From a virus: 30,390 nucleotides of DNA. Of this stretch, positions 1 through 22,634 are shown in pieces. Numbering within the stretch: position 1 is the stretch's first letter; the number at the start of each line of letters is the position of its first letter. The notes under the pieces are model-generated. The model saw only the letters and a program-made list of their open reading frames with translations, did no database searches and had not been told where the DNA came from. The translations under genes were made by a program, and so were the position numbers. Where the stretch lies: IMG/VR virus record IMGVR_UViG_3300013094_000188, positions 1 to 30,390 of that record, one strand, 5' to 3'.

Positions 1-1524
1 GAGGCATGGCCGCTGGGTTCCTTTAATGAACTGCTGGGTGTCTGGGAAGCCGACGAACTCATCAACCCCGATGACGTAGAGGTCATTCGTAGCCCGTTCC
101 TCAAAGAGCCACGTTTCGAGATGGCACTACCGGAAGATATTCGTAAGATCATCAAGGAGCGGGACCCCAAGTGGGAGTACGAAGCCCTCATGCGTTCGTA
201 TCCAGAGTTGGCGCATTTCACTACAGATGATGCCAAGATGCCGGTGTCGAACATCTTGCTGAAGCAGATTCCATTCAAGGGTGATTCGTTCCACCCTCGG
301 GGCATCCCAATCCTCATGCGTGGATTCCGAGCCATCATTCAAGAAGAAATGCTCAACGCTGCTCAGGACGCTATTGCCGAGCGCCTTTACACGCCCCTCA
401 TCATCGCCAAACTGGGTGCCTCTGCTAGTGACCTTGGCACGTCGGTCCCGTGGATCCCGACGATGGACGATCGGGCATCCTTTGAGGAATCCCTTGACGC
501 TGCTCTAGCCGGTGACTTTCGGGTTCTTATCACTCACTTCGCCACTAACGTCACGTCCGTGTTCGGCAAAGAGGCTATGCCAAACTTCACCCCGGAGTTT
601 GACCGCCTCAATGATCGCCAGTTGCAGATTTTCGGCATGTCCAAGACCATGCTGTCGGGTGCTTCGTCTGGCCAGACCTATGCAGCCGATGCCCTCAATC
701 GAGACCTGCTCACCCAGTTGCTCACGACCTACCAGCGCAAGATTAAGCGATTCGTGACTGATCGTATGCGAGTGGTGGCCGAGGCCCAAGAGCACTACGA
801 CTACGAAGAGCGTGGTGGTATCAAGTACCCCATCATGGAAGAGATTCTCGAGGTCGATTCCGAGACCGGCGAGCACCGCATCATCGAGCAGCCAAAGTTG
901 CTGGTTCCCGAAGTCACGTTCAAGACGATGAACCTCGCTAGTGAAAAAGACGAGCGTCAACTCGTCGAGGCACTTCGCACATCTGGCGTACCTATTTCGA
1001 TGCGGTCTCGAGTCACCAACATTCCGATCGATCTCGACGAGGAAATTGAGTTGGTCAAAAAGGAACAGGTCGATCAGGCCGTCGCAGCGCAAGAGGCCCG
1101 GAAGGAAACCTACCTTGCCCTTCGTGGCGCTGGTTTGCCCATCCCCGATGATCTTCGGGCAGACTTTGAGCCCAAGGCGCAAGAGAAGGATGGGGGCAAT
1201 CCTCACGCTCAGGGTGCCGAGGAGCAAGTGCTCCCCAACATTGGACTTGATCAGCCCGCTAGCACGATGGCACTAGCCCCCACCCCCGAAGACCTTTCAA
1301 ACGAGATGGGTGGTCAAGACGAGGGTGTCAACGAGGCCGTCATGCAAGAAAGCGGGTCTGTCGATCGCCTGCCCCAAAATCGTTTTAAGAATCGCCCCGA
1401 TGAGTCCGATGAGATGCGAAAGGACATGCCCAAGGCTTCTAGTCTTCAGCATGGCCCTAGTCACATTGGAAAGCGTTCTACCCGTCGTATCGACCCTACC
1501 CGACCCCTAGACGAGCAGGTCTGA
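1..1524 (+). CDS. Portal protein, C-terminal part (5' end outside window)
   Basis: The frame is open from the first base, so the gene starts upstream; 507 residues are visible and the first internal Met is at base 121. The portal is the dodecameric head vertex through which DNA enters and leaves. Support is the residue pattern around bases 580-770 (LNDRQLQIFGMSKTML, then SGQTYAADALNRDLLTQLL and a basic helix), which resembles the portal stretch where a Gly/Ser loop is followed by a long helix, plus position: it lies upstream of protease, scaffold and capsid genes, the usual tailed-phage order. The last ~130 residues are acidic, low-complexity and end in a basic tail (GKRSTRRIDPTR). The next gene begins 41 bases later behind a regulatory motif. 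Terminase is not in the window, so the assignment is by pattern and order, not by an invariant motif. Confidence 0.68.
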   Translation, partial: EAWPLGSFNELLGVWEADELINPDDVEVIRSPFLKEPRFEMALPEDIRKIIKERDPKWEYEALMRSYPELAHFTTDDAKMPVSNILLKQIPFKGDSFHPRGIPILMRGFRAIIQEEMLNAAQDAIAERLYTPLIIAKLGASASDLGTSVPWIPTMDDRASFEESLDAALAGDFRVLITHFATNVTSVFGKEAMPNFTPEFDRLNDRQLQIFGMSKTMLSGASSGQTYAADALNRDLLTQLLTTYQRKIKRFVTDRMRVVAEAQEHYDYEERGGIKYPIMEEILEVDSETGEHRIIEQPKLLVPEVTFKTMNLASEKDERQLVEALRTSGVPISMRSRVTNIPIDLDEEIELVKKEQVDQAVAAQEARKETYLALRGAGLPIPDDLRADFEPKAQEKDGGNPHAQGAEEQVLPNIGLDQPASTMALAPTPEDLSNEMGGQDEGVNEAVMQESGSVDRLPQNRFKNRPDESDEMRKDMPKASSLQHGPSHIGKRSTRRIDPTRPLDEQV

Positions 1525-1564: not shown

Positions 1565-4500
1565 ATGAGTAAGCGCCACGAAAGCAGCAAGCCTACTAAT
1601 AGGTTCCGTTCCGAAGCATCTTCGGATTCACTGCACTTCGCCTCTGACGATTATCCCGAGTTGGAAGAGATTCTCGTAGAGCGCCCACCGCTAGAGCACG
1701 TCTCCACGACCGACCGCTACTCGATGCCCAAGCGTGTATCCCTCGTCGCATCTCGCAAAACCGCCTCGTTCAATCGTGAGAACGTATCATGGCAGTCTCC
1801 CAATGGCACTTGGAACCTCGGGTTCTTTGAAGTAGTTTGGGAAGGTGACGAAGACCCCGAGTGGGAAGTCGAGTATGACTTTGACCATTTTGAATGGGTC
1901 AGCACTGGGCACGACACTCAAAACGAGGCCGATGATGCGTGGGATGGATCGAACCCCGGTGGAGGTCGGTCAGTAAACGATCCGAATAACCCCCTCGTCG
2001 CCAAGTACGACGCCATGGCCCAAGAACTCAAGTCGAAGGGCCGTCGTGACCCTTACAACTGGATGGCCTATATCGCAGGCAATCTTCTTTCCGACAACGG
2101 CACGACTGGCGAAGAGGACGAGGACGGCCTCGACGAGCAATTGGACTTTGGCACCGATAACTTCACCACTACGGGCGCTAACAATCCTAACGAGAAGTCC
2201 GTAGAGCCATTTGGCTATGACGACGCCAACTTCGATGACATGGCCGCTAGCGACGAGACCGGCTATTCTACTGAAAGCAATGATTCAGTCTGGGAGCCTG
2301 ACAACGGCACGCTGGGGTATCTTCACCGTGCGGACCTAACATGGGACGAATACGAGATGCGAGACGGTGGCACGGACACTTCAGGTGAGATCGATGAGCC
2401 TACCGACGATTTTCATCTTCCCGGCGACCATGCGATTGACTTCGTAGAGTCGGCTCGTCGTAAGGCATCGTCGTATTCTCGACGTGATATGGACATCGAC
2501 GCACAGTTGGAGCGTGAGGCTATTCACATTGCATCCGGTGCCGCTGTCCCCAACCCCGTCATTCCCACCCGTAAGACTGCCGAAATCCTTGATGGAGTCG
2601 ATTATGGCGAACCCACGGAGTGCTGGAATTGTGGATACGATCATGACAATTATCATGTAACTCATTACCTTGATGGTTGGGTTATTGGTTACCCGATTTG
2701 CCCGAAGTGCGAAGCGACCGGCGACGAAGTTCGTATGGGGTCAGAATCGAACTTTCGACGGGCTAATCGACGGACCGCTCAAACGCTTTCGGGCATTTCT
2801 CGTGAACAGGCCGAGCAAATCCTGACCGAGATCAACAATCGGTACAATTGGCGAACTGAAGAAAACGATAGGTGGTCCTACGACGGTTGGATGTACCCCG
2901 AACCGATCCTCATCGAATACAAGGATTACGCCCCGAACCCCTACTGGGTCATTTCGTGGGAAGATGGGCCGGACAACTGGGCCTACGGTTGCCAAGTCAG
3001 CGACCCCAAGGTTTTCTCCGAGCCTGTCTACTCGTTCGCTCTCGGCCTGTTTGAGGCCAAGCGCAAGAAGGCTTCTACTAACTCCCGCCCCCAGAATCGA
3101 AAGACGGCCATGGGTATCACGCCCTGCCAGTCCTGCGGTGGCGAACTTCCGTTTGGACAGCCCTACGGCATCTGCGTCGAGTGCACCAACTCCGACCGTG
3201 CTGCTGTTCCATCCAAGGCGTTCCCTGAGCACCTCCAGACTGTAAATGGCTCTCGTCGTACCGCCACGATCTACGTTTGCGATGCCTGTGATGGCGAAGG
3301 GTGCCCTGCTTGCGCCAACGATGGCTGGGTGACCTCCTCTCGCAAGACCGCCAAGTACGGCCCGTGCAAGCAATGTGGCTTTGAGGACAACCTCCGCAAC
3401 GGTTATTGCGCCGAATGCTATCTCGAGCGCAAGCACGCCCACCAAAATGCGGCCAAGGGATCCCGCAAAACGGCAGAAGTTAGTCCCGGCATGTATCCAT
3501 GCCCTGCGTGCGACGGTAAATGGAACAATCCCTGCCGGGTCTGTAACGGGGAGGGCGAATTGACGGATGACGCCATTCGTGCCAAATACGAATACAGCAA
3601 TTTTGATGTCGAGGAATACATTTCTTCGTGGGACGATTCCGACGAGTCAGTCACCGTTTACTCCAAGCGCAAGACCGCTCGCAAGTGCGACTACTGCAAA
3701 CAGGACGGGGCCAAGGCTGTAGGTGGCTATGCCGACCTTCACCTGTGTGGCGAGTGCCGAGCAGAGATGCAGAACGAGTACGACATGGAGCGCAACTACC
3801 ACGAGATGTACGGTTCCCGTAAGACGGCATTTGTGCAGACTTGCCCCATCTGCGACGAAGGGTTTGAGTCTCACGAAAGCGTCTACGCCGCCAATCCCCA
3901 AGATGACGATGTAACTGCCGTTTGCTCTGACCACTGCGCCGACATTTTTGAGGGAACGCCACCGCAACGAGCGGTCGCCCAACGCAAGATCGCCTACCCA
4001 GATGACGAGTACGACGAGTGCTCTCGCTGTGGCGAAGAGTTTTGGATGGGGGCCTATCAGTGCCCCTACTGTGGTCTTGGTCAGGACTTGCCCGATGGTA
4101 CCCGTGACCACCGCACTGCCGCAGGGATGGCTTGCCAATGGGGATGCGGTCGGGATCCCGTGAAGGCCCCTCGTGACGAGTATGGGATTCCGCCCTACTA
4201 TGACCTTTGTGAAGAGCACCGTGAGGAATACAACGCTGGTGGTGAGCGTCCCGGATTCCCGAATCCTCGAAACTCGCCCATGAACGTCAACCGCTATTCC
4301 TCCCTTCACGACGAAGGCGACCCTGCTGTCTACTCGGTCTGGTATGACCCCTACAAAGCACTTGGGGAAAAGGGCGAAACGGCAGGAAACCTCTTTGTTT
4401 GCTACGAGTGCGCCGACGACTGGAATTACGGCAGCGCCCCCACTCCTGCCGAACCTTGGGAATACGCAGGGCATGGAGGCTTTAAGGGTTGGGACGAATA

Positions 4501-4984
4501 CACGCCCGGTCAATCCGAAGTGACGTCGTGCGAAAGATGCGGTAATGATTTTAGTAGCCTTCCGACCTTTGATCAGATCGGGCGCACTGCTTCTGCCCAA
4601 TCCACCCTTCACGACGAGCCAGAGGCAGCACTCCCGAGCACGGATGGCAACGCTGTAGTCGATGACGAGATGGACCCCCAGCACTATGACGAGATCGGCG
4701 ATGATGAGGCGTTGGCTTCCCAGACCGCATCACGCTCATGGCTCATGGATGGCTCCTCGGGCGGTAGCCAGTCCAACGCTGACATCGCCCAAGCCGCCCA
4801 GCAGCACCTCAAGACGGCCCTGAAAGAGTTTTCCAAGGCCGAACAGGAAGAACTCATCAACGAAGGCGAAGACGTCCAAGCATCTAACCTTGACCGCTTG
4901 CAGATCGAAGGAACTCACTATGAGTACCTCGAACAGCAGTTGAGTCAGGCCGACGAGAGCGGCGAGTCTGTCTATTGGTGGTAG
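1565..4984 (+). CDS. Giant multi-zinc-ribbon modular protein with RKTA linkers
   Basis: 1139 residues; not recognised as a named family. Residues 1-300 are acidic with an SRKTA at 63-67. From about 300 the chain alternates basic linkers, with the Arg at 299 (RKA), 336, 402, 512, 564, 593, 634, 702, 752, 807, 850 and 1007 (RKTA, RRTA, RKIA or RTA), with single Cys-rich modules: CWNC/CPKC, CQSC/CVEC, CDAC/CPAC, CKQC/CAEC, CPAC/CRVC (CxxCxGxG, DnaJ-like), CDYC/CGEC, CPIC/CSDHC, CSRC/CPYC, and a last region with CQWGC, CYEC and CERC. One module (about 405-500) is Trp/Tyr-rich without a zinc knuckle. The C-terminal ~100 residues are helical and acidic, ending in YWW. It sits between portal and spike genes behind late motif copy 1, so a virion or capsid-assembly role is likely. 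The regular linkers look like processing sites or DNA-binding tails. Function is unproven. Confidence 0.85.
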   Translation: MSKRHESSKPTNRFRSEASSDSLHFASDDYPELEEILVERPPLEHVSTTDRYSMPKRVSLVASRKTASFNRENVSWQSPNGTWNLGFFEVVWEGDEDPEWEVEYDFDHFEWVSTGHDTQNEADDAWDGSNPGGGRSVNDPNNPLVAKYDAMAQELKSKGRRDPYNWMAYIAGNLLSDNGTTGEEDEDGLDEQLDFGTDNFTTTGANNPNEKSVEPFGYDDANFDDMAASDETGYSTESNDSVWEPDNGTLGYLHRADLTWDEYEMRDGGTDTSGEIDEPTDDFHLPGDHAIDFVESARRKASSYSRRDMDIDAQLEREAIHIASGAAVPNPVIPTRKTAEILDGVDYGEPTECWNCGYDHDNYHVTHYLDGWVIGYPICPKCEATGDEVRMGSESNFRRANRRTAQTLSGISREQAEQILTEINNRYNWRTEENDRWSYDGWMYPEPILIEYKDYAPNPYWVISWEDGPDNWAYGCQVSDPKVFSEPVYSFALGLFEAKRKKASTNSRPQNRKTAMGITPCQSCGGELPFGQPYGICVECTNSDRAAVPSKAFPEHLQTVNGSRRTATIYVCDACDGEGCPACANDGWVTSSRKTAKYGPCKQCGFEDNLRNGYCAECYLERKHAHQNAAKGSRKTAEVSPGMYPCPACDGKWNNPCRVCNGEGELTDDAIRAKYEYSNFDVEEYISSWDDSDESVTVYSKRKTARKCDYCKQDGAKAVGGYADLHLCGECRAEMQNEYDMERNYHEMYGSRKTAFVQTCPICDEGFESHESVYAANPQDDDVTAVCSDHCADIFEGTPPQRAVAQRKIAYPDDEYDECSRCGEEFWMGAYQCPYCGLGQDLPDGTRDHRTAAGMACQWGCGRDPVKAPRDEYGIPPYYDLCEEHREEYNAGGERPGFPNPRNSPMNVNRYSSLHDEGDPAVYSVWYDPYKALGEKGETAGNLFVCYECADDWNYGSAPTPAEPWEYAGHGGFKGWDEYTPGQSEVTSCERCGNDFSSLPTFDQIGRTASAQSTLHDEPEAALPSTDGNAVVDDEMDPQHYDEIGDDEALASQTASRSWLMDGSSGGSQSNADIAQAAQQHLKTALKEFSKAEQEELINEGEDVQASNLDRLQIEGTHYEYLEQQLSQADESGESVYWW

Positions 4985-5054: not shown

Positions 5055-6014
5055 ATGAGCACTCGCACCTACACGAACATTGCTCCGCCGAGGGCACTTT
5101 CTGCCACCATCGGCACGTCTGACACCACTTTCCAAGTATCGGGGTCTACGACGGGCTATCCTGCAAGTGGCCCGTTTTTGGTCACCCTCGACCGTGGCAC
5201 CACGAGCCAAGAGGTCATTCTTTGCGCTAGCGTAAACACCTCCACGAACACGTTCACCGTGGCATCGGGTGGTCGAGGTTACGATGGCACTACCGCCTCT
5301 AGCCACACCGCAGGTGCCGCTGTCGAGCACACTTCTGCGGCCATCGACTACCGTGAGCCCAACACGTTCATCAACACCTATACCGCAGCCGGTGACCTCA
5401 TCGTCGGTGCTACTGGAGTGTCGCTGAACTACGCCCGACTGCCTTTGGGCACCACCGGCCAAGTCCTGTCGTCAAATGGCTCTACCGCCGTTTGGACCAC
5501 CCCTGCGGTCAACTCAGGAGCGACTGGACCTACCGGAGCAACCGGACCGACTGGCCAGACCGGCCCGACGGGTCCCACGCTGGTGAATCCTTACTCGTTC
5601 GCCCACTCAGTCTCTTCGCAGACGGTAGGTGCGCCTACGACCATCTCGCTTGATTCTGCGACCATGGTTCACAAGGGCACTTTGTATCCCACCCTTTCGG
5701 GCAACGTGTTTACAATCCCTACCGGAGCGTCAGGTCTGTACGTTATTAACGGAGCCATTGCTGTCAATACTTCGTCGGTAGCAAATCAATTCATCACGGC
5801 GCAAGTCACTGCAGCGGGCTCCACTTACTATGGTTCGAGCGCCCAAAACAGTTCGTCATGGGGCGCCTGCGCTTCCGTAAACATTACGGTCCCCCTTGCT
5901 AGCGGACAAACCGTATCGTTGCAAGGCATTGCTTCTAACAGCCCCAGCACAAATGTTGGCACCGGACCCACTTCGACGTACCTTTCTGTGGCCTACATCG
6001 GACCGACTACATGA
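5055..6014 (+). CDS. Spike/fibre protein with collagen-like stalk and C1q-like head
   Basis: 319 residues. Residues about 10-95 form a small beta-rich domain (TTFQVSG, then FTVASGGRGYDGT) of a type repeated in phage structural proteins. Residues about 155-175 are Gly-X-Thr/Pro triplets (GATGPTGATGPTGQTGPTGP), a short trimeric collagen-like stalk. Residues about 180-319 form a beta-rich domain resembling C1q/TNF-type trimer heads, ending in TSTYLSVAYIGPT. By analogy it is a trimeric surface spike or fibre, possibly capsid-borne since it lies among head genes. Start supported by CGAGGAAG eight bases upstream. Its stop overlaps the next start as ATGA. Confidence 0.75.
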   Translation: MSTRTYTNIAPPRALSATIGTSDTTFQVSGSTTGYPASGPFLVTLDRGTTSQEVILCASVNTSTNTFTVASGGRGYDGTTASSHTAGAAVEHTSAAIDYREPNTFINTYTAAGDLIVGATGVSLNYARLPLGTTGQVLSSNGSTAVWTTPAVNSGATGPTGATGPTGQTGPTGPTLVNPYSFAHSVSSQTVGAPTTISLDSATMVHKGTLYPTLSGNVFTIPTGASGLYVINGAIAVNTSSVANQFITAQVTAAGSTYYGSSAQNSSSWGACASVNITVPLASGQTVSLQGIASNSPSTNVGTGPTSTYLSVAYIGPTT

Positions 6015-6322
6015 TGACGAAGGCCGACGGCGAAAAGGTAGTCATCGGGAACGACCACGCCATTACGGGCATCACGCAGACGGATGGCAGCACTCGTTAT
6101 GAGTCCCTCGAGGGTGCTCAACAAACGACGCTAATGTTTCCACCCGGACTAAGCATTGAGGACATGATCCGTGAGACCATCGGAGCGATGCAGTCGCACA
6201 TGGAGTCCGGGGCGAAGCCCGCATGGATCGAAGCCGAAAACGAAGAACTGCTCGATGCCCTGATGACCTTCTACGAAATGACCGACGACCCCGACGAAAT
6301 CAAGGAAGAATCAGATGGCTAG
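6011..6322 (+). CDS. Small acidic protein following the spike gene
   Basis: 103 residues, translationally coupled to the spike gene by an ATGA overlap; the second Met (base 6014) is an alternative start. The N-terminal half is beta-like (KVVIGNDHAITGITQTDG), the C-terminal half strongly acidic and helical (ENEELLDALMTFYEMTDDPDEIKEE). No family recognised. Its position between two structural genes suggests a spike chaperone or small structural component, by inference only. It overlaps the next gene by eight bases. Confidence 0.7.
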   Translation: MMTKADGEKVVIGNDHAITGITQTDGSTRYESLEGAQQTTLMFPPGLSIEDMIRETIGAMQSHMESGAKPAWIEAENEELLDALMTFYEMTDDPDEIKEESDG

Positions 6323-6728
6323 AACCTCAGCAGGCGCAGACTGGCAGGCCACCGTGCTCGGCACCACCACGGCTCCGAGTGGCACGCTTGGCACGGGCTA
6401 CATGGCTCCGGCAAATTACATTGCCCTTTCCAATGACACCGCTAGTCCCAACTCCTCCGACACGACTCTTCCCGGCGAACTCACCGGAACCTCCACGCCA
6501 TCAACATCAACACTCGTTCGCAAGCAGGCGACCTTTGCTCACACCACTGGCACGAGCACTTACACCCTTACGACCACGTTCACCTCGGACGTGACGGTCA
6601 CTGTTGCCAAAATCGGCGTCTTCAACGCAGCCTCTAGCGGCGTCCTGTTTGCAGAGACCCTCCTGAACACCCCCATCACCTTGCATTCCGGTGACACCAT
6701 TCAGATTCAAGAAACGATCAACATCTAA
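6315..6728 (+). CDS. Thr/Ser-rich beta-structured virion protein
   Basis: 137 residues. The pattern ANYIALSNDTASP, then DTTLPGELTGT, ATFAHTTGTSTYTLTTTF, KIGVFNAASSGVLFAETLL and SGDTIQIQETINI is a recurrent phage structural-protein type, often annotated as minor structural or fibre-associated. Start chosen at the Met preceded by AAGGAAG; this gives an eight-base overlap with the preceding gene, so the three genes from 5055 form one coupled set. An inverted repeat (ATTTCC at 6729, GGAAAT at 6743) follows the stop. Confidence 0.72.
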   Translation: MARTSAGADWQATVLGTTTAPSGTLGTGYMAPANYIALSNDTASPNSSDTTLPGELTGTSTPSTSTLVRKQATFAHTTGTSTYTLTTTFTSDVTVTVAKIGVFNAASSGVLFAETLLNTPITLHSGDTIQIQETINI

Positions 6729-6755
6729 ATTTCCCCCGAAAAGGAAATCTAAGTA

Positions 6756-6923
6756 ATGGGCGAGGCGTCACCGAAAGGTGGCGTCTTTCCCTTGTATGCG
6801 CCGATTGGGGAGGAATGGCACAGTGGGATGCGAGACCTACGACGAAAGTTGGTGCCTATGGATCTTTCATCTACAGGGAGAGAGCACACGTTCGGAGGTA
6901 AGCATTCAGAAAAGGGCAGATAA
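6756..6923 (+). CDS. Small hypothetical protein (55 residues)
   Basis: Reading frame of 55 residues starting MGEASPKGGVFPLY, basic overall. Its stop overlaps the next start as TAATG, the coupling style used elsewhere in the window, which supports it. Against it, the first codons run through a strong hairpin (6764-6785), so the beginning of the frame may be a terminator rather than coding. Two later Mets in frame (MRDLRR and MDLSST) are alternatives. Confidence 0.45.
   Translation: MGEASPKGGVFPLYAPIGEEWHSGMRDLRRKLVPMDLSSTGREHTFGGKHSEKGR
6764..6785 (+). terminator. GAAA-tetraloop hairpin, possible terminator
   Basis: GGCGTCACC, loop GAAA, GGTGGCGTC: nine pairs including two G-T wobbles, closed by a GNRA-type tetraloop and followed by TTTCCC. 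It follows the 5055-6728 structural set. The T-tract is short, so termination is probable at best. Confidence 0.45.
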
Positions 6924-7240
6924 TGGTAACGATAGCGACTAGCACTTACGGAGACCCGGTGTTCTGGGCAATGTTCAGTGCCGTTATTGGTGCTGTTGCC
7001 CTCATCGGTGCTGTCATCCGTAGCATCACCAACTACTTCAAAAAGAACAAAGTCGATCGACTCCAAATGTACGTCGCCCTCGTCGATGACCTTCAAGACG
7101 AACTTAAGCGTTTGCGGTCCGATATCAAAGAGGAGCGCAAGGAAAATGGAGAGCGGGTTCGTGACCTTGCTCTCATCATCGAACGGCAAATGGTGGAGAT
7201 TGAGGCGCTTCGCAATCCGACCCCGAAAGGGAAGCCATGA
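6923..7240 (+). CDS. Small membrane protein with coiled coil (holin-like)
   Basis: 105 residues. One N-terminal hydrophobic segment, about residues 12-33 (FWAMFSAVIGAVALIGAVI), then a basic NYFKKNK stop-transfer and a charged coiled-coil helix (DDLQDELKRLRSDIKEERKENGERVRD) to the end. This layout is common in phage lysis-associated or injection-associated membrane proteins. It overlaps the next membrane-protein gene by four bases (ATGA at 7237). No endolysin is adjacent, so a holin role is only a candidate. Confidence 0.7.
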   Translation: MVTIATSTYGDPVFWAMFSAVIGAVALIGAVIRSITNYFKKNKVDRLQMYVALVDDLQDELKRLRSDIKEERKENGERVRDLALIIERQMVEIEALRNPTPKGKP

Positions 7241-7581
7241 CGACAGAAACTCCAGCCCTTGATAACGTCCACCGAACTATCGGGGCGTATCATCCACCAA
7301 GCAAGCGTCAGTGGATTCTTTGGATTTCCGGCCTTGTTATTGGTATCTCATTGCTAATCGGAATGGTCATCTCGATCTTTCTCGTAGTGCAGGTCAACAA
7401 TAGAACGGCTCAGTCCCCGGCCCAATATCAGCAGTTGCACCGTGACTTGCTGAAACTGCAAGGCCTCGCCAAACAAGAACTTGCTACCAACCCCAGCGCC
7501 CAAACCACCTACGCCCAGATCGAAGCCCAGATCAAGGATCTTTGCGGCACGGTACCGGGCTGCGTATGGAGCAAACTTTAG
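7237..7581 (+). CDS. Small single-pass membrane protein
   Basis: 114 residues. A hydrophobic segment at about 27-51 (WILWISGLVIGISLLIGMVI) is preceded by basic residues (SKRQW) and followed by a Gln-rich helix and a C-terminal pair of cysteines (DLCGTVPGCVW) that could form a disulfide outside the membrane. It is coupled to the preceding membrane protein by ATGA; the pair could be a two-component membrane complex such as a lysis or superinfection-exclusion pair. No named family recognised. Confidence 0.7.
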   Translation: MTTETPALDNVHRTIGAYHPPSKRQWILWISGLVIGISLLIGMVISIFLVVQVNNRTAQSPAQYQQLHRDLLKLQGLAKQELATNPSAQTTYAQIEAQIKDLCGTVPGCVWSKL

Positions 7582-7598
7582 ATTTATCGCTAAGTGAC

Positions 7599-7627
7599 TT
7601 GACAGCATGAGCACTTTCGGTTATGGT
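7599..7627 (+). promoter_or_regulatory. Sigma-70-like promoter (leaderless type)
   Basis: TTGACA at 7599, 17 bases, TATGGT at 7622, preceded by TGAC to give the recurrent TGACTTGACA. The next usable start codon (7635) is only seven bases past the -10, where transcription should begin. Confidence 0.75.
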
Positions 7628-7634
7628 TACAGCC

Positions 7635-8171
7635 ATGACCAACGCACCTACTTTCCAAATCGCCCGCCAGCAGACCGAAACCCGCCCCAACCGCTACGGC
7701 GGCAACTGCACCAACTGCCGTGGCTACGTCGAAGCAGATGCCGGGCTCCTCGGCCCTAAGACCGCCGAAGGCAAGTGGACGGTCATGCACATCACCTGCC
7801 CCGCTCCCGAGCCCGTCAGCGCCACCACAGCACCCACACAGGTCGAGCCCGGTATCTACATCGACGGCGAGGGCGCTATCTGGAAGGTCCAGCAGAACAA
7901 GGCCAAGACCAGCGTCTACGCCAAGGTCTGGAGCAACCACAACGGCGAGCGCCTTACCCTTGGTGGCGAGAAGGTTCACGGTGAGTGGGATTACGTTCCC
8001 GGTGGCATCCGCACCGCATCGACAGCCCGTCGCATGACGCTCGACGAAGCCAAGGCGTTCATCCTTCTTTACGGATCGTGCGTCCGGTGCGGACGGACCT
8101 TGAAGGCTGCCGAGAGCGTTGAGCGAGGGATCGGGCCTGTCTGCATCACCTACTTCAATCAGTTCGCTTAG
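7635..8171 (+). CDS. Double zinc-ribbon protein, DUF6011-like C-terminus
   Basis: 178 residues. N-terminal site CTNC (25, 28) with H52 and C55; C-terminal CVRCGRTL at 149, followed by ESVERGIGPVC, the signature of the DUF6011-type zinc domain frequent in actinobacteria and their phages. The middle (PGIYIDGEGAIWKVQQNK) is beta-rich. An upstream ATG at 7623 lies inside the -10 hexamer and cannot be used, so 7635 is the start and the mRNA is probably leaderless; no Shine-Dalgarno is present. Function unknown; a nucleic-acid or protein-binding role is inferred from the zinc sites. Confidence 0.8.
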   Translation: MTNAPTFQIARQQTETRPNRYGGNCTNCRGYVEADAGLLGPKTAEGKWTVMHITCPAPEPVSATTAPTQVEPGIYIDGEGAIWKVQQNKAKTSVYAKVWSNHNGERLTLGGEKVHGEWDYVPGGIRTASTARRMTLDEAKAFILLYGSCVRCGRTLKAAESVERGIGPVCITYFNQFA

Positions 8172-8175
8172 TGAC

Positions 8176-8204
8176 TTGACACTCTGCTGAAATTCATGTA
8201 TGTT
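8176..8204 (+). promoter_or_regulatory. Sigma-70-like promoter (leaderless type)
   Basis: TTGACA at 8176, 17 bases, TATGTT at 8199, again within TGACTTGACA. The ATG at 8211 is six bases past the -10. Confidence 0.72.
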
Positions 8205-8210
8205 GTGTCT

Positions 8211-8399
8211 ATGGCAAAGAACCGAAACACCAACACCACCGCAGACCACCTTGCAGCAGTTCGGGGACTCCGTCGAGCAGCGGCTTTGGCCGACGGCTCG
8301 TTTCACACGCAGCCCAAGTCTGTTAGAATTTCAGATGGGCGCAAGAAGGCCTCCAAGACCGCCTGCCGAAAGGGCAAGTATGGCTACATGGATCATTGA
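8211..8399 (+). CDS. Small basic hypothetical protein
   Basis: 62 residues, rich in Lys and Arg (RGLRRAAALADG, then DGRKKASKTACRKGKYGYMDH). The ATG at 8211 has no Shine-Dalgarno but sits at the predicted transcription start, so it is likely leaderless. Its C-terminal RKKASKTA resembles the basic RKTA linkers of the 1565 protein. No family recognised; nucleic-acid binding is plausible from charge only. It overlaps the next gene by 20 bases. Confidence 0.62.
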   Translation: MAKNRNTNTTADHLAAVRGLRRAAALADGSFHTQPKSVRISDGRKKASKTACRKGKYGYMDH

Positions 8400-8568
8400 G
8401 GAGACCGAGGATGGATTCGACATCCTGCGGAACGCTCGAGCGTGGCGCTACGAGGTAGACGACGAAGACGAAGCGATCGACGCCATAACACGATCGTATG
8501 AGTACGAGGGCCACGATCACATTTGGCTCGAGGACATCAACGGTTCACGCCAGCGCATCGAATTGTGA
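8380..8568 (+). CDS. Small acidic hypothetical protein
   Basis: 62 residues from MATWIIEETEDGFDI; acidic, with a predicted beta-then-helix pattern (WRYEVDDEDEAIDAITRSYEYE). Start 8380 is preferred because AAAGGG precedes it. An in-frame ATG at 8335 would add 15 Pro/Arg-rich residues and lies five bases past a TAGAAT (8324) with TTTCAC 17 bases before it, so a second leaderless start is possible. Ends with a GTGA overlap with the next gene. Confidence 0.6.
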   Translation: MATWIIEETEDGFDILRNARAWRYEVDDEDEAIDAITRSYEYEGHDHIWLEDINGSRQRIEL

Positions 8569-8727: not shown

Positions 8728-8764
8728 CCTGTCGGATACCATAGGACTGCACCTAAGTAGTGAG
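8728..8764 (+). promoter_or_regulatory. Bipartite late-promoter-like motif, copy 3
   Basis: CCTGT at 8728-8732, CGGA, 16 bases, CTAAGTAGTGAG. It occupies the whole space between the inserted small-gene block and the protease-scaffold gene, 25 bases before its ATG. Confidence 0.6.
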
Positions 8765-8789
8765 ACACCCGCTACGTCCGAGGAAGTCT

Positions 8790-11768
8790 ATGATCCGCAA
8801 GTACGCCACGCTAGAGACGATTTCTTCATCCTTCGCAGAAGACTCTCTCCGTAAGTCTGCCCACCGAGCGGACTTCTCCAACGTCGATGTCCGTCCGGGC
8901 TATCTTTACGTCCGTAGTCGTGCCATCTCGTCTCGCACCAACGACAACTACGACACGTTTCCCGCTGCCGAAATCAAGAAGGGCTACCTTTCTTTCATCG
9001 GCAAGCCCGTCTTCGTAAACCACGAGAACGAAAATCACCGTCGTGCCCGTGGTGTGATTCTCGACGCCAAACTTCACGAAGACGCCAATCCTGACGGTTC
9101 CCCCGATACTTGGGTCGAAGTGCTCATGGAGGTCGACGCTATTCGATTCCCCAAGTTGGCCGAAGCCATCGTCAAGGGACACATTGAAAGAACTTCAATG
9201 GGCGTGGACGTCGAGATGTCCGAATGCGGAGCCTGCCACAACGAGGCTCGTACGCCGATGGACTATTGCGCCCACATCCCCCGCATGAAGGGCTCCAAGA
9301 TCCGTCAGGTCACCGCATCGGGTACTCAGCAGGACGTGTTGATCCATGAGGTTTGCTACGGACTGAACTTCTTTGAGAACTCCCTGTTGGTCGAAGACCC
9401 GGCAGACCCCACCGCTTACTTTTTGGGCGTGGACACTAGTGGCCTCGAAATGCAAGCCACCAAGCGTGCCATCGCCACTCGCAAGAACTCAATGCGTTAT
9501 GGGAAGCCCATCGAGGCGTGGGAACTCCAAGACCGGATTGATCGTGGTCTCGACGTCTTTATTCCCAGCGGCGGCGTTTCACCGGGCAGCGTCATCTCAG
9601 AGGCCCAAGGCCGCCAGATCGTTGTTTCCGACGAAGCCACCGACGGGCTTTACCCGACGTGGGAGGTCTACGCAATCGATTCGAACGGCGACGAAGACTA
9701 CATCGGTTTCATCGAATACCCCGATTCCCGTGCCAATGACTACGGCTGGAAGCAACAAGTGGCCACTCGCAAGTCCCAATCTTTCGGTGGCCGTCGGGTA
9801 TCGTCTTTGCAGAAGAGTGCTCGTCGCAAGGTCGGCTATGGCGAGATCGTGGCTCCCCCTGCCGTAGACACCCTCCGTCAAGAAGAGTGCCCTATCTGTG
9901 GTGGCGATCAATACAACGGCGACCAATGCCTCGTTTGCGGTTTCATCAAGCCACCCGAGATGTATATGGACCCCGATCTTGAGGCTGCCGGTCTCCAAGA
10001 CCTTCGTGAGGAACAAGGAATCGACGGGGCGGTGCCAGACCAGCCCAACGCTATGTCTGGGGATATGACCCCCGGCCTAGATACAAATAACCCTGTCGTA
10101 GAGAATGTCCTTGCTGGCGACGTCCAAGAACTTGAGTGCGACTCCTGTGGCGCTTCGTTCGGCTATGACCCGACGATGGCTCACGCCCCCGGCCCTATCG
10201 AAGAGGTATCTGAGCCCGTCGCAGAACCGCCGCTGGAAAACCCGGCTCAAACTGGCCCCATGCCTGCTGGATCGGCACTAGGCGACGTTCCACCGCCCCC
10301 GCCGAATAACTCTACCGATGACGAGCCGGGTAACGAGGAATCCGCCCCTGAGCCTCCGGCTGGCGAATCGCTGCCTAAGGACGAAAAGGACTCCGATGAC
10401 GAAACGCACGACGACCCTGCTGCACAAGTTGAAGACGGGGCTAAGGCATCCCCTGAAGACTCTTCAAGCGATTCTGAAAAAGCAGTGGCCGACGATCAGT
10501 CAAGCGGTAGTAATGCAAGCGGTGACAAGTCTACTGATGTGGCTAGTGCCGATAGCGACGAAAGCGATGCTGATAACGCCTCCGACGGCTCAAAGAATGA
10601 TGACTCGTCTGCAGGCCAAGGGTTCGAGTCCATCCAACCCGGAGACCCCTGCCCCGAGTGCGGCGGAGGAACTGTAGGTCACCCTACCGAAGACAATCCC
10701 CTCAACGCCACGGACGAGAACCCTGACCCCGACAATGACGGCGATGACGACCGTTTGGGATCGGAAGACGACCCCGACCACGCCGATGAAGAGGAAGAGG
10801 TCTACGACGAAATCGTAGACGACGAAGATCAAAAGAAGAAGGACAAGGATAAGAAATCTAAGTCGGCGTCCTACCAAACACCCCGCAAGTCCAAGAAAGA
10901 AGTGAAGACTAGCCGCCGTAGCAACTCCGCACGGCGCAAAAGCCAGAAGGAAGATAGTATGGCACGTCCCATCATCCAAGCAGTTGCCGAGCAGCAGCAG
11001 GTCATCAAGCGCCAAGCCGCTGAGATCGCCCGACTCAAGAAGTCCGTTGCTCGCATCGAGCGTCTCGCCGGTATCCGTACCACCGCTGACGCCGCCAACC
11101 CCGCACAGCCGATCCCGCAGCCTGCTGGCGCCCCCGGCATTGACGGTGGCTCGCTCGAGCAGGCTCGCACGCCGGGTGCCCGTGGTCAGGTCGAAGACAT
11201 CGGTTCGGTCGCTGACACCACGAACGTCGGTGCCTACACGACTGACTCGGTGGACAACATCGGTCTTTCCAGCCCCTCGGGTTACAACATCACCCAAGAT
11301 GTGACCACGCCGGTTGCTGGTACTGAGACCATGCGCCCCCTCGACGAGGTTCGTACCCGTCCCGTCATTGAGTTCGGCAACCCGCTGAAGCCCGACTTCG
11401 CTTTCCCGCTCGAGGGTGACTTCGCCCAGCGTGCCACCGTCGGTTCCGAGGCCCGCATCTACGCTTCGCTGCGCCTTGCCCGTCTCCGCATCGAGGCTGG
11501 CACCGCAGAGGAGGATGACGACGTCGCCGAAGCCGAGACCATCAACAACGATGAGTCAAAGAGCGACGAAGACATTCAGAACGAGATCGAGACCACCTCG
11601 AAGATCCTGAAGGCCCAAGGCAAGAAGCAGACTCGCACCGCTTCACGCAACTTGGTTCCCAAGGCTCGTGGCGGACGGCAAGTTCCGTCCGTTGCCAAGG
11701 CTGGCGGAATCAGCACTGTGGCCTCGCAGGCAGCCCCTGCAGGCGACGACCCGTTCCTGTTCATCTAA
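8790..11768 (+). CDS. Prohead maturation protease fused to scaffold
   Basis: 992 residues from ATG 8790 (GAGGAAG upstream; the earlier in-frame Met at 8760 lies in the regulatory motif). Residues ~30-200 fit the S78/HK97-type prohead protease: GKPVFVNHENENHRRARGVI with candidate catalytic His78, and GHIERTSMGVDVE with candidate nucleophile Ser136. A Cys cluster (GACHNEA, then DYCAHI) lies directly after. Then come basic linkers (TRKNSM, TRKSQS, SARRKVG), a zinc ribbon (CPIC 367, CLVC 380), CDSC at 450, a very acidic Ser/Asp/Glu region (~480-700) with CPEC at 621, and a basic stretch (SRRSNSARRKSQKED). From 724 a coiled coil (QQQVIKRQAAEIARLKKSVARI) begins the scaffold part. It should cut the scaffold and capsid-associated proteins during head maturation. 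It lies directly before the capsid genes, as expected. Confidence 0.82.
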   Translation: MIRKYATLETISSSFAEDSLRKSAHRADFSNVDVRPGYLYVRSRAISSRTNDNYDTFPAAEIKKGYLSFIGKPVFVNHENENHRRARGVILDAKLHEDANPDGSPDTWVEVLMEVDAIRFPKLAEAIVKGHIERTSMGVDVEMSECGACHNEARTPMDYCAHIPRMKGSKIRQVTASGTQQDVLIHEVCYGLNFFENSLLVEDPADPTAYFLGVDTSGLEMQATKRAIATRKNSMRYGKPIEAWELQDRIDRGLDVFIPSGGVSPGSVISEAQGRQIVVSDEATDGLYPTWEVYAIDSNGDEDYIGFIEYPDSRANDYGWKQQVATRKSQSFGGRRVSSLQKSARRKVGYGEIVAPPAVDTLRQEECPICGGDQYNGDQCLVCGFIKPPEMYMDPDLEAAGLQDLREEQGIDGAVPDQPNAMSGDMTPGLDTNNPVVENVLAGDVQELECDSCGASFGYDPTMAHAPGPIEEVSEPVAEPPLENPAQTGPMPAGSALGDVPPPPPNNSTDDEPGNEESAPEPPAGESLPKDEKDSDDETHDDPAAQVEDGAKASPEDSSSDSEKAVADDQSSGSNASGDKSTDVASADSDESDADNASDGSKNDDSSAGQGFESIQPGDPCPECGGGTVGHPTEDNPLNATDENPDPDNDGDDDRLGSEDDPDHADEEEEVYDEIVDDEDQKKKDKDKKSKSASYQTPRKSKKEVKTSRRSNSARRKSQKEDSMARPIIQAVAEQQQVIKRQAAEIARLKKSVARIERLAGIRTTADAANPAQPIPQPAGAPGIDGGSLEQARTPGARGQVEDIGSVADTTNVGAYTTDSVDNIGLSSPSGYNITQDVTTPVAGTETMRPLDEVRTRPVIEFGNPLKPDFAFPLEGDFAQRATVGSEARIYASLRLARLRIEAGTAEEDDDVAEAETINNDESKSDEDIQNEIETTSKILKAQGKKQTRTASRNLVPKARGGRQVPSVAKAGGISTVASQAAPAGDDPFLFI
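10945..10961 (+). promoter_or_regulatory. Internal ribosome-binding site and in-frame ATG for scaffold
   Basis: AGAAGG at 10945-10950, eight bases, then ATG 10959 in frame with the protease gene. It falls exactly between the basic stretch and the coiled coil, and codons become markedly C-ending after it, as in the neighbouring capsid genes. Confidence 0.6.
10959..11768 (+). CDS. Nested scaffolding protein (internal start)
   Basis: 269 residues sharing frame and stop with the protease gene. It starts with a coiled-coil helix (about residues 5-38), followed by a Gly/Pro/Ala linker, a region (PLDEVRTRPVIEFGNPLKPDFAFPL) that could contact capsid subunits, an acidic helix, and a basic Gly-rich tail ending DDPFLFI. 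Known parallel: lambda Nu3 is made from an internal start of the protease gene C. A strong ribosome site and a codon-usage shift toward C-ending codons support separate, higher expression. The alternative is that scaffold is only made by proteolysis of the full product. Confidence 0.6.
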   Translation: MARPIIQAVAEQQQVIKRQAAEIARLKKSVARIERLAGIRTTADAANPAQPIPQPAGAPGIDGGSLEQARTPGARGQVEDIGSVADTTNVGAYTTDSVDNIGLSSPSGYNITQDVTTPVAGTETMRPLDEVRTRPVIEFGNPLKPDFAFPLEGDFAQRATVGSEARIYASLRLARLRIEAGTAEEDDDVAEAETINNDESKSDEDIQNEIETTSKILKAQGKKQTRTASRNLVPKARGGRQVPSVAKAGGISTVASQAAPAGDDPFLFI

Positions 11769-12493: not shown

Positions 12494-13477
12494 ATGTCGA
12501 ATCTCGCAAAGTCAGCAGGCCTTTCGCCTCGGGTCGCCCGCAAGTCGGATGACTACGTTTCGGAGATCCTGAAGCGTCGTAAGGGTGGCTCTTCGCTGAC
12601 CCACGAGGCCAAGGTCACGAAGATGGCCCTCGTCCTCCAAGACGAGGTAAACGGTATCCGTCGCCTCGGCATCGGAATGATCGGCCCGATCCAACTCAAG
12701 TTGCGCTATCAGGGCATCGTCCGTAACGTACTCGTCGAGGACCCGGTGACCCCCGGTACCCCCGTCGAGTATGACGTATGGGACGACCTCGGTCAGGCCT
12801 ACATCCTCAACGGTACTGAGGGCGAAGTCCGAGTGACTCCGTTCGAAGGCAAGCGTGTGCCGATCTTCTTCTGGCGCATCGCCTCCCGTCCGGCCATCCG
12901 TAAGGAAGACCTCTTCTACCTGCGTATCAACGTAGTGGAGCAGGCTCAGGACGAGACCAAGCAGGCCATTATGAAGCAGGAAGACTCCCGCCTCATCATC
13001 CTGCTTCAGGCTGCGTTGAATGACTACGCCACCCGTCCTGACCACGTCATCAGCCCGAACCACGCCATCACCGAGACCTCGGGTTACTTCACCCCGGCCT
13101 CGTTCTACACCGCCGTGGCTCAGACTGACCTTCACGAGATCGTCTCGGGTCGCATCCTTGTGAACCCGTACGACTACCGTGACTTCTTCCGCTGGGACAT
13201 CAACCAGACTGGTTGGGCCTTCAAGGACCGAGTCGTCGCTGGTGAGCAGATCACCACGTTCGGTGAGTTCCAGATCCAGCGTTCGATCATCCAGACGCAG
13301 GGCGAGATGTTCCTCCTGCCGAACCCCGACTTCCTCGGTGTGTTCCCCGTCCTTTACAGCCTTGACGTGGAAGAGAACCACAACGTCGAGGCCTTCTGGA
13401 AGGGCTGGGTCTTCGACGAGATGGTCAGCATGGCGATCCTCAACCCCCGTGGCATTGCCTCGATCACCAAGCAGTAG
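12494..13477 (+). CDS. Probable major capsid protein
   Basis: 327 residues, a usual length for an HK97-fold capsid subunit. It follows protease-scaffold and decoration genes, has a strong Shine-Dalgarno (GAAGGAAGAG) and the most biased codon use in the window. The N-terminus has a basic helical arm (SPRVARKSDDYVSEILKRRKGG) that could be the cleaved delta-type region. The middle has an acidic/basic helix (EDLFYLRINVVEQAQDETKQAIMKQEDSRL), and the C-terminal region FLLPNPDFLGVFPVLYSLDVEENH leads to GWVFDEMVSMAILNPRGIA, consistent with the P-domain core of capsid proteins. Identification rests on position, size and expression signature. Confidence 0.72.
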   Translation: MSNLAKSAGLSPRVARKSDDYVSEILKRRKGGSSLTHEAKVTKMALVLQDEVNGIRRLGIGMIGPIQLKLRYQGIVRNVLVEDPVTPGTPVEYDVWDDLGQAYILNGTEGEVRVTPFEGKRVPIFFWRIASRPAIRKEDLFYLRINVVEQAQDETKQAIMKQEDSRLIILLQAALNDYATRPDHVISPNHAITETSGYFTPASFYTAVAQTDLHEIVSGRILVNPYDYRDFFRWDINQTGWAFKDRVVAGEQITTFGEFQIQRSIIQTQGEMFLLPNPDFLGVFPVLYSLDVEENHNVEAFWKGWVFDEMVSMAILNPRGIASITKQ

Positions 13478-20806: not shown

Positions 20807-21229
20807 ATGGACACGAACCGAGCATCACAAATCGCAGCGATGGCCCACGAGGGTCAGCGTGACAAGTCCAACGTGCCCTACATCCTTCACCCGATGCGAG
20901 TGGCCTCGAGGTTCCTTGCGGATTCAGATCAGTCGGTGGTGGCATGGCTCCACGACGTCCTTGAGGACACGGACTGGACGCTCGAGGAGTTGCAGGCCGA
21001 AGGCCTTACGCAGCGTCAGGCCGATGCCTTGGTGGCCATCACCAAGATCAACCACGAGCCTAACGTGGACTACATCGCCCGAGTGAAGGCCAACGACATC
21101 GCCACAATGGTGAAGTTGTCTGACCTTGCCGACAACTCATCGCCAAAGCGGATGGCAAACCTTGACGAAGCCACGGTGGCCCGTCTCCAGACCAAGTACG
21201 ACCGAGCCCGAGCCCAGTTGCTCGCCTAG
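20807..21229 (+). CDS. HD-domain phosphohydrolase, RelA/SpoT hydrolase (MESH1)-like
   Basis: 140 residues. The order AHEGQRDKSNVPYILHP (H14, H28), AWLHDVLEDT (H49-D50, E53-D54) and VKLSDLADN (D106, N110) reproduces the metal-binding HD pattern of the (p)ppGpp hydrolase domain of SpoT and small alarmone hydrolases. These remove the 3'-pyrophosphate of (p)ppGpp with Mn2+. No synthetase, TGS or ACT domain is present, so it is a single-domain enzyme, shorter than most at 140 residues. It would lower alarmone or act on another nucleotide during infection. The start lies at the predicted transcription start (no Shine-Dalgarno), so the mRNA is likely leaderless. Confidence 0.82.
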   Translation: MDTNRASQIAAMAHEGQRDKSNVPYILHPMRVASRFLADSDQSVVAWLHDVLEDTDWTLEELQAEGLTQRQADALVAITKINHEPNVDYIARVKANDIATMVKLSDLADNSSPKRMANLDEATVARLQTKYDRARAQLLA

Positions 21230-21558: not shown

Positions 21559-21593
21559 TCCTGCTGTATCCGGGGTGTGGTAGCGTGATGGGT

Positions 21594-22634
21594 ATGAGAT
21601 TTCACCTCACGGCCCTGCCCCACACTCAAGTGACGAGGGCATATTCCTCGTGCGCCTACACCCAAAAGGTCTTGAAGTTTGCGGACATGATGGTGGCTCG
21701 AGGTCACGAGGTCATCATCTATGGCAGCGAGGACAACGAGTCGGCTGGAGAGTTGGTGACGTGCATCACCAAAGAACAACAGCGTGAAATGGGTTTCCAT
21801 GGCCCCGAGGATTACCAATCCATTGACTTTGATCCCGAGAAGCCGCTGTTCGCCAATTTCAATGAGCGCATCGTCGAGGAGATGAAGCAGCGTGCTATGC
21901 CTAAGGATTTCATCTTGCTGTCGATGGGGGTCTCGAACACTCCGGTCATCAAGGCGTTTCCGGCCCACCTCAAGGTCGAATACGGCATTGGATACACCGG
22001 CATCTCATTTGAGACGTTCAAGGTCTACGAGAGTTACGCATGGAGGCATTTTGTTGCCGGGGTCTATGACGCCAACGGCCAGTTCTACGACGAGGTCATT
22101 CCTAACTACTTCGAGGTAGCGGACTTTCCACCATCGGTGCCAGAGGACTACTACCTCTACATGGGACGACTCATTGACCGCAAGGGCTACTCCATTGCCG
22201 TCGAGGCGTGCCAAGAACGCCAGCAGCGACTCGTAATTGCCGGAGCGGGAGAACCACCCGCCTATGGCGAATACAAGGGCATGGTGGGCGTCGAAGAACG
22301 TGGCGAACTCATGTCAAAGGCCGTGGCATTGTTCTGCCCAACTCTTTACGTCGGTCCCTTCGAAGGGGTTTCGGTCGAGGCCAACATGTGCGGAACGCCG
22401 GTAATCACGACCGATTGGGGTTCCTACACCGAGAACGTCATCGAAGGTTTTAACGGATTCCGCTGCAAATCTATGGCCGATTTTCGACGGGCTATGGATC
22501 TTGCCCATCACGTCGATCGCCAAGCCATCCGTGAGTGGACGATTGATCGATTCTCCACCGAGGCCGTGGCCCAAAAGTATGAAGAGTATTTCGAGCGCCT
22601 CGAGACTCTTTGGGGCAAAGGCTTCTATTCCTGA
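21594..22634 (+). CDS. GT-B glycosyltransferase (GT4-like)
   Basis: 346 residues. N-terminal Rossmann half with GHEVIIYG; linker; C-terminal half with YLYMGRLIDRKGY (donor-site K197 region), LVIAGAGE and GPFEGVSVEANMCGTPVITTDWGSYTENV (254-282). The usual GT4 E-x7-E is altered: Gly254 stands at the first Glu position and an upstream-shifted Glu (PFEG) is present. It should transfer a sugar from an NDP-sugar, perhaps to phage DNA, virion protein or a host glycan. The alternative start at 21585 overlaps a TAGCGT that resembles a -10; start 21594 lies seven bases past it, as in the leaderless genes here, although no good -35 is present. Confidence 0.82.
   Translation: MRFHLTALPHTQVTRAYSSCAYTQKVLKFADMMVARGHEVIIYGSEDNESAGELVTCITKEQQREMGFHGPEDYQSIDFDPEKPLFANFNERIVEEMKQRAMPKDFILLSMGVSNTPVIKAFPAHLKVEYGIGYTGISFETFKVYESYAWRHFVAGVYDANGQFYDEVIPNYFEVADFPPSVPEDYYLYMGRLIDRKGYSIAVEACQERQQRLVIAGAGEPPAYGEYKGMVGVEERGELMSKAVALFCPTLYVGPFEGVSVEANMCGTPVITTDWGSYTENVIEGFNGFRCKSMADFRRAMDLAHHVDRQAIREWTIDRFSTEAVAQKYEEYFERLETLWGKGFYS

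Follow-up and report, generated by a model that had tools for sequence, protein, structure and literature searches.

A putative head-packaged polyprotein of zinc-ribbon beads and [KR]TA separators in a relative of Bxz1-type myoviruses

We analyzed a viral contig of 30,390 bases from IMG/VR (record IMGVR_UViG_3300013094_000188; the whole contig is referred to below as the window), in which the gene P0001 encodes a chain of small cysteine-rich modules separated by a short basic motif. P0001 is probably a cargo polyprotein that is packaged into the phage head and cut at [KR]TA by the maturation protease, yielding zinc mini-proteins. Four features evident in the sequences underlie this reading, namely the position of the gene, a constant C-terminus joined to a variable interior, an excess of the motif in head-interior proteins, and the presence of one four-cysteine bead per interval between separators. 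More tentatively, head polyproteins across a lineage of large actinobacterial myoviruses may consist of effector beads split by the maturation-protease site, such that maturation would yield an injected cocktail, which in the window would be one of zinc-ribbon mini-proteins. The features of the window are listed in Table 1.

Separators and zinc beads in P0001

The tetrapeptide [KR][KR][TIS]A occurs 10 times in P0001, against a mean of 0.11 and a maximum of 3 in 20,000 shuffles of the same protein, and [KR][TI]A occurs 13 times (mean 0.65, maximum 6). An initial annotation of the window, made from its letters and open reading frames (ORFs), had listed separator arginines at residues 336, 402, 512, 564, 593, 634, 702, 752, 807, 850 and 1007. 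Every position is correct, and two further sites, RKTA at residue 64 and KTA at residue 1083, were absent from that list. The same annotation described one zinc module in each interval between 512 and 850, and this is what we observed: each of the seven consecutive intervals across residues 516-852 contains exactly four cysteines, a pattern matched by 60 of 200,000 random placements of the inner separators. Segment 340-405 has the same content, and each bead carries two cysteine pairs. The modules are real, but their number, given earlier as about ten CxxC/CxxC units, is better described as eight clean four-cysteine beads and one 157-residue segment with seven cysteines. Similarly, the separators do lie between zinc beads as had been proposed, but they also border the non-zinc segments 68-339 and 406-515, and they are therefore general separators and not linkers of zinc modules.

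A Pfam scan of the whole protein returned no real domain, including no peptidase domain, and single beads gave weak matches only (zinc-ribbon, FYVE, DnaJ-like and YHS; best zinc-ribbon E 0.005). An AF2 model of the zinc string from the single sequence had a pLDDT of 40 and was uninformative on the fold. Searches of IMG/VR with the whole protein and with residues 502-856, together with tblastn of phage records, found no homologues of the zinc string beyond the C-terminal module.

A tetrapeptide repeated at regular places could also be a functionless relic of recent tandem duplication. However, the RKTA copies differ in their codons (e.g., CGC AAA ACC GCC, CGT AAG ACT GCC and CGA AAG ACG GCC), and the beads show no clear mutual homology when their cysteines are held fixed (z <= 3.7), which argues for selection on the peptide rather than recent duplication of DNA, as the initial annotation had held for the linker. 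The non-zinc segments, moreover, carry the same separators, as does an unrelated string of beads in gp12 of Rhodococcus phage Finch (described below). Recent duplication is largely refuted by the codons, the beads and Finch gp12, and we consider it extremely unlikely.

A cargo slot with a constant C-terminus

The order of the head genes in the window matches that of gp89-gp99 in ArcherS7 (Mycobacterium, Bixzunavirus), gp15-gp19 in Finch and gp72-gp79 in E3, and the window major capsid protein (MCP) is ~58% identical to those of this group. By these comparisons, the window phage is a relative of the Bxz1-type myoviruses. P0001 lies between the portal and maturation protease genes, in the slot of the Bixzunavirus-type cargo gene, and its similarity to known phages is confined to the last ~115 residues, where positions 721-822 of phrog_30974 match P0001 (E 6e-12) and identify a homologous C-terminal module.

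The protease, the MCP and the C-terminal module each served to scan IMG/VR for relatives. A total of 78 non-identical cargo genes, the window included, have this module in common (about 110-115 amino acids; consensus FQRTAG / KTALKxFSxAEQxELINEG / NLDxLxIxGTHYE). AF2 modelled it from 61 rows as four helices with a pLDDT of 73 and a low pTM of 0.29. At the N-terminus of the cargo genes, DYPE is found in 21 of 61 relatives and YPEL in 19 of 61. The interiors differ widely, and among their contents are Nudix, double zinc ribbon, GNAT and SWIM domains, inteins, a 2'-5' RNA ligase-like 2H phosphoesterase, an Arr-type ADP-ribosyltransferase, a ParB C-terminal domain and a lipase. The closest relative by MCP with a readable cargo gene (L190; MCP of that contig 88% identical) has a SWIM domain, a 2H domain and two stretches that resemble ADP-ribosyltransferases by eye, with no zinc string. 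Because the C-terminus is constant while the interiors vary so widely, we regard this as a polymorphic cargo slot, with the zinc string as one of its cargoes. The relatives found there clearly combine several unrelated domains in one chain, as polyvalent proteins do, and by its domain content the slot is a polyvalent-protein cargo slot.

Separators between domains also occur in other genes, and by their sequences two proteins are independent cases. Finch gp12 (NC_054724 6105-8504; L001:5103-7502), which is annotated as hypothetical, is a second beads-on-a-string protein and comes from a cultured Rhodococcus phage. Its 799 residues contain nine [KR]TA sites, mostly KKTA, against 0.47 by shuffling, and these divide an acidic chain (pI 4.2) into small segments. 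Two cysteine pairs are present in one segment, and a search for homologues of the gp12 bead region found none. The second case is a protease-linked chain of 1827 amino acids in L037 (6771-12254), with seven [KR]TA sites, several of which lie between successive GNAT-, 2H-, ADP-ribosyltransferase- and zincin-like stretches (by eye; Pfam confirmed the GNAT copies only).

Other observations concern the same genes in relatives. Maturation-protease ORFs of 1827-3240 amino acids extend into effector-type domains (L037:6771-12254, L005:10019-19369 and L006:10001-19723), with GNAT in all three and additionally Nudix, Arr ADP-ribosyltransferase and ParB in L005 and L006. Intein/Hint elements are present within the cargo genes L047:4148-8227 and L050:4233-9140, the former apparently splitting a SWIM-type zinc finger. 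In E3, stand-alone LigT-like 2H and WhiB-like genes (gp74 and gp75; L194:13153-13933) occupy the interval between portal and cargo, and the LigT-like gene resembles a cargo domain encoded on its own. The E3 record labels gp70, in the equivalent slot upstream, a structural protein; it enters the gene (L194:6562-9721) as a pseudogene in two pieces, with a change of frame near the 3' part.

Distribution of the [KR]TA motif and its interpretation

If RKTA is a maturation protease site, the motif would be expected to be over-represented in proteins of the procapsid interior and not elsewhere. We compared distinct clusters of [KR]TA sites with the mean of the five other residue orders, the clustering limiting double counting of homologous sites. 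Across relatives, enrichment was 4.7-fold in the portal, 3.7-fold in the protease/scaffold and 3.4-fold in the cargo (window excluded), followed by 2.7-fold upstream of the cargo and 1.9-fold between cargo and protease, as compared with 1.2-fold downstream of the MCP and 1.5-fold in unclassified ORFs. A single genome, in which homologous sites are not counted repeatedly, gave the same picture: with ORFs called mechanically over most of its 139 kb, Finch has 24 [KR]TA in the 4145 amino acids of gp12-gp17 and 20 in the 35,438 amino acids elsewhere (5.8 vs 0.56 per 1000 amino acids; 10-fold, p = 6e-13). The richest ORFs were gp12, gp17, gp16 and gp13.

The position of the motif within these proteins is also consistent with cleavage. 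In the portal, none of 17 [KR]TA sites falls within the conserved core (8.7 expected; 4 of 17 for permuted controls), all lying in a tail, N- or C-terminal. Of 180 sites in the protease protein, 19 lie within the catalytic domain (32 expected) as against 54 of 217 permuted controls, and the C-terminal tail often has several; the window protease has its domain at about 8847-9419 and an RTA near its C-terminus (residue 959). Directly before the conserved SDDYV at the MCP N-terminus, [KRH]-x-A is found under a strict pattern in 40 of 51 distinct MCPs, in variants that include RTA, RVA, KVA and RFA, and by eye several of the remaining 11 show RKA or RTA one step off. The window MCP reads RVA-RKSDDYV. 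The remote MCP relative gp27 of phage G (structure 6wkk) is without the N-terminal extension present here and thus has no bearing either way on this site. A test against Pfam domains went in the expected direction with a small effect (1 site inside, 4.4 expected). P0001 therefore carries a motif in common with other head-interior proteins and the MCP, and the suggestion in the initial annotation that the separators are prohead protease sites is supported, at the level of sequence, by a concentration in cargo, protease/scaffold, portal tails and upstream head genes, by [KR]-x-A at the MCP N-terminus, and by the lack of enrichment in tail and later genes.

Several observations weigh against cleavage. 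The SWIM region is not depleted of [KR]TA (6 sites, 9.8 expected), and its controls are more depleted. The cargo genes of several relatives (e.g., L007, L010 and L180) are free of [KR]TA and that of L190 has two sites only, which shows that a high density of separators is not constant. In the window itself, the protease has a single [KR]TA and the portal fragment none. A protein-docking motif, furthermore, would yield the same enrichment. [KR]TA could accordingly be a docking or retention motif for the shell, scaffold or protease, with P0001 staying one multivalent chain in which the beads are rigid spacers. Such a motif would have the same distribution over head-interior proteins, and the extreme copy numbers in P0001 and Finch gp12 would suit multivalent binding, while the case for cleavage is drawn from sequence. 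However, the MCP has a single copy directly before SDDYV, where a propeptide would end, and the several copies that the protease carries in its C-terminal tail suit self-processing better. We judge docking to be unlikely, though worth serious consideration.

Two other explanations are less probable. A polyvalent cargo might be injected as one chain and any cutting left, after entry, to a host protease or to a metallopeptidase. Zincin-like metallopeptidases have been put forward as processing enzymes of polyvalent proteins (PMC5512222), and by eye one stretch of L037 is zincin-like, but P0001 has no peptidase domain according to Pfam, and the motif also occurs in the portal, the protease and the MCP, none of which is an injected effector; we consider this explanation improbable. 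The initial annotation had offered, as a second possibility, that P0001 organises packaged DNA through basic DNA-contacting linkers. RKTA is indeed basic, and the zinc modules on either side of it could be binders of nucleic acid, whereas P0001 as a whole has 211 acidic and 100 basic residues (pI 4.44) with most beads acidic or near neutral, and the motif is also present in portal tails, in protease tails including the C-terminus, and in cargo composed of enzymes of unrelated kinds. On this evidence a DNA organiser is disfavoured, and we think it very improbable.

Under the cleavage reading, P0001 would be translated as one chain alongside the late head genes and held in the procapsid by its C-terminal module, whose constancy and position suggest this role. 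The maturation protease would then cut at [KR]TA, as the motif distribution suggests, probably after the alanine, and the same enzyme would trim the portal tails, its own C-terminal tail and the MCP N-terminus. A tripeptide ending in alanine fits an assemblin-type maturation protease with alanine at P1, as in the herpesvirus assemblins. Cutting would free seven or eight zinc-ribbon mini-proteins of about 3-8 kDa (calculated) plus a few other segments. These beads may stay in the head with the DNA and would be small enough to exit via the tail into the host, for which T4, SPN3US and P1 provide precedents. We would guess that cutting the string is what makes zinc ribbons, which resist unfolding, deliverable. 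Small zinc ribbons mostly bind proteins or nucleic acids, and in the host the beads probably act early by binding one or the other; interference with host transcription or defence at this stage is our leading guess, albeit a weak one.

Known systems and neighbouring genes

The general class to which P0001 would belong is known. For polyvalent proteins, packaging and injection have been proposed, with processing attributed mainly to zincins; those that have an assemblin-like peptidase carry it as a C-terminal fusion (Iyer et al., 2017; PMC5512222). P0001 resembles them as a large, putatively multidomain chain encoded among head genes, in a slot where relatives carry ART, GNAT, Nudix, 2H phosphoesterase and ParB domains. 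It differs in that its string is built of small zinc ribbons, not enzymes, and in that its separators correspond to a motif also present in head proteins. In T4 and SPN3US the prohead protease trims internal head proteins, and in SPN3US several motifs are cut within one propeptide (PMC10052503). The point of similarity is a protease motif in head-interior proteins, but cutting there removes propeptides from one mature protein, whereas cuts in P0001 would free many mature beads, and the motif in P0001 is [KR]TA. The Dar proteins of phage P1 are very large, packaged in the head and believed to enter the cell, and DarA is thought to be processed (PMC9024508); by description P0001 would be alike as a very large protein of the head, but the packaging signal of DarB is N-terminal while the constant module of P0001 is C-terminal. 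The products in the same slot of close relatives, Bixzunavirus gp96, Finch gp16 and E3 gp76 (annotated as LysM-like or hypothetical; phrog_30974), have the homologous C-terminal module but contain a SWIM-type domain, few separators and no zinc string. The initial annotation knew of no described phage system of this kind, which holds for the zinc string and its separator code, but polyvalent proteins (PMC5512222) and internal head proteins processed by a protease (PMC10052503) are described examples of the broader kind. Novelty appears to lie in the zinc string, in the separator code common to these proteins, and in the second string, that of the cultured phage Finch.

Should [KR]TA prove to be where the protease cuts, proteins of the head interior, and the mature pieces that they give rise to, could be predicted by a simple rule from sequence in the roughly 200 phages of the group (Bxz1-like, Gordonia and Rhodococcus) that have been sequenced, in which most such genes are now called hypothetical. 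Polyvalent effectors would also be linked to the maturation of the head, and there would be a hint of how a large folded cargo is made small enough for the tail. We found no open-access paper with virion mass spectrometry of the cargo of this clade; Finch gp12 and the E3 and Bxz1 relatives belong to cultured phages, and the prediction is directly testable in them.

Table 1. Features of the 30,390-base window. Residue numbers refer to P0001 unless stated otherwise.
Feature	Position	Strand	Remarks
Portal protein, 5' end outside window	1..1524	+	phrog_2833, E 2e-107
P0001, putative cargo polyprotein	1565..4984	+	1139 aa, 128 kDa, pI 4.44; flanked by portal and maturation protease genes, as in Bixzunavirus and Finchvirus
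N-terminal motif DDYPELEEILVERPP (DYPEL element), common to relatives	1646..1690	+	seen in L035, L049, L192
Separator RKTA, residue 64	1754..1765	+	motif count
Separator RKTA, residue 336	2570..2581	+	motif count
Zinc bead 340-405, four Cys, ends RRTA (402)	2582..2779	+	
Non-zinc segment 406-515, ends RKTA (512)	2780..3109	+	410-498 resembles phrog_6619
Zinc bead 516-567, four Cys, ends RRTA (564)	3110..3265	+	
Zinc bead 568-596, four Cys (CxxCxGxG-like), ends RKTA (593)	3266..3352	+	
Zinc bead 597-637, four Cys, ends RKTA (634)	3353..3475	+	
Zinc bead 638-705, four Cys, ends RKTA (702)	3476..3679	+	
Zinc bead 706-755, four Cys, ends RKTA (752)	3680..3829	+	
Zinc bead 756-810, four Cys, ends RKIA (807)	3830..3994	+	
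Zinc bead 811-852, four Cys, ends HRTA (849)	3995..4120	+	weak double-zinc-ribbon match
Segment 853-1009, seven Cys, ends GRTA (1006)	4121..4591	+	
Constant C-terminal module (LHDEPEAALPSTDG ... AEQEELINEG ... NLDRLQIEGTHYE), holds KTA 1083	4592..4981	+	proposed packaging signal
Head maturation protease with long C-terminal tail	8760..11768	+	phrog_18299, E 5e-21; alignment with relatives
Major capsid protein (MCP)	12494..13477	+	phrog_2522, E 5e-98
RVA preceding RKSDDYV at MCP N-terminus	12530..12538	+	proposed propeptide cleavage site

The head genes downstream of P0001 include a cement protein (PF23968). Extra genes lie between cargo and protease in the window (5055-8568), among them one for a collagen-like protein with GPTG repeats (5055-6014) and one for a DUF6011 protein that carries KTA and RTA (7623-8171), whereas the cargo and protease genes are adjacent in Finch and ArcherS7. 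Elsewhere in the window, positions 20807-21229 encode a putative HD/SpoT-like protein and positions 21585-22634 a putative glycosyltransferase, both assigned by eye.

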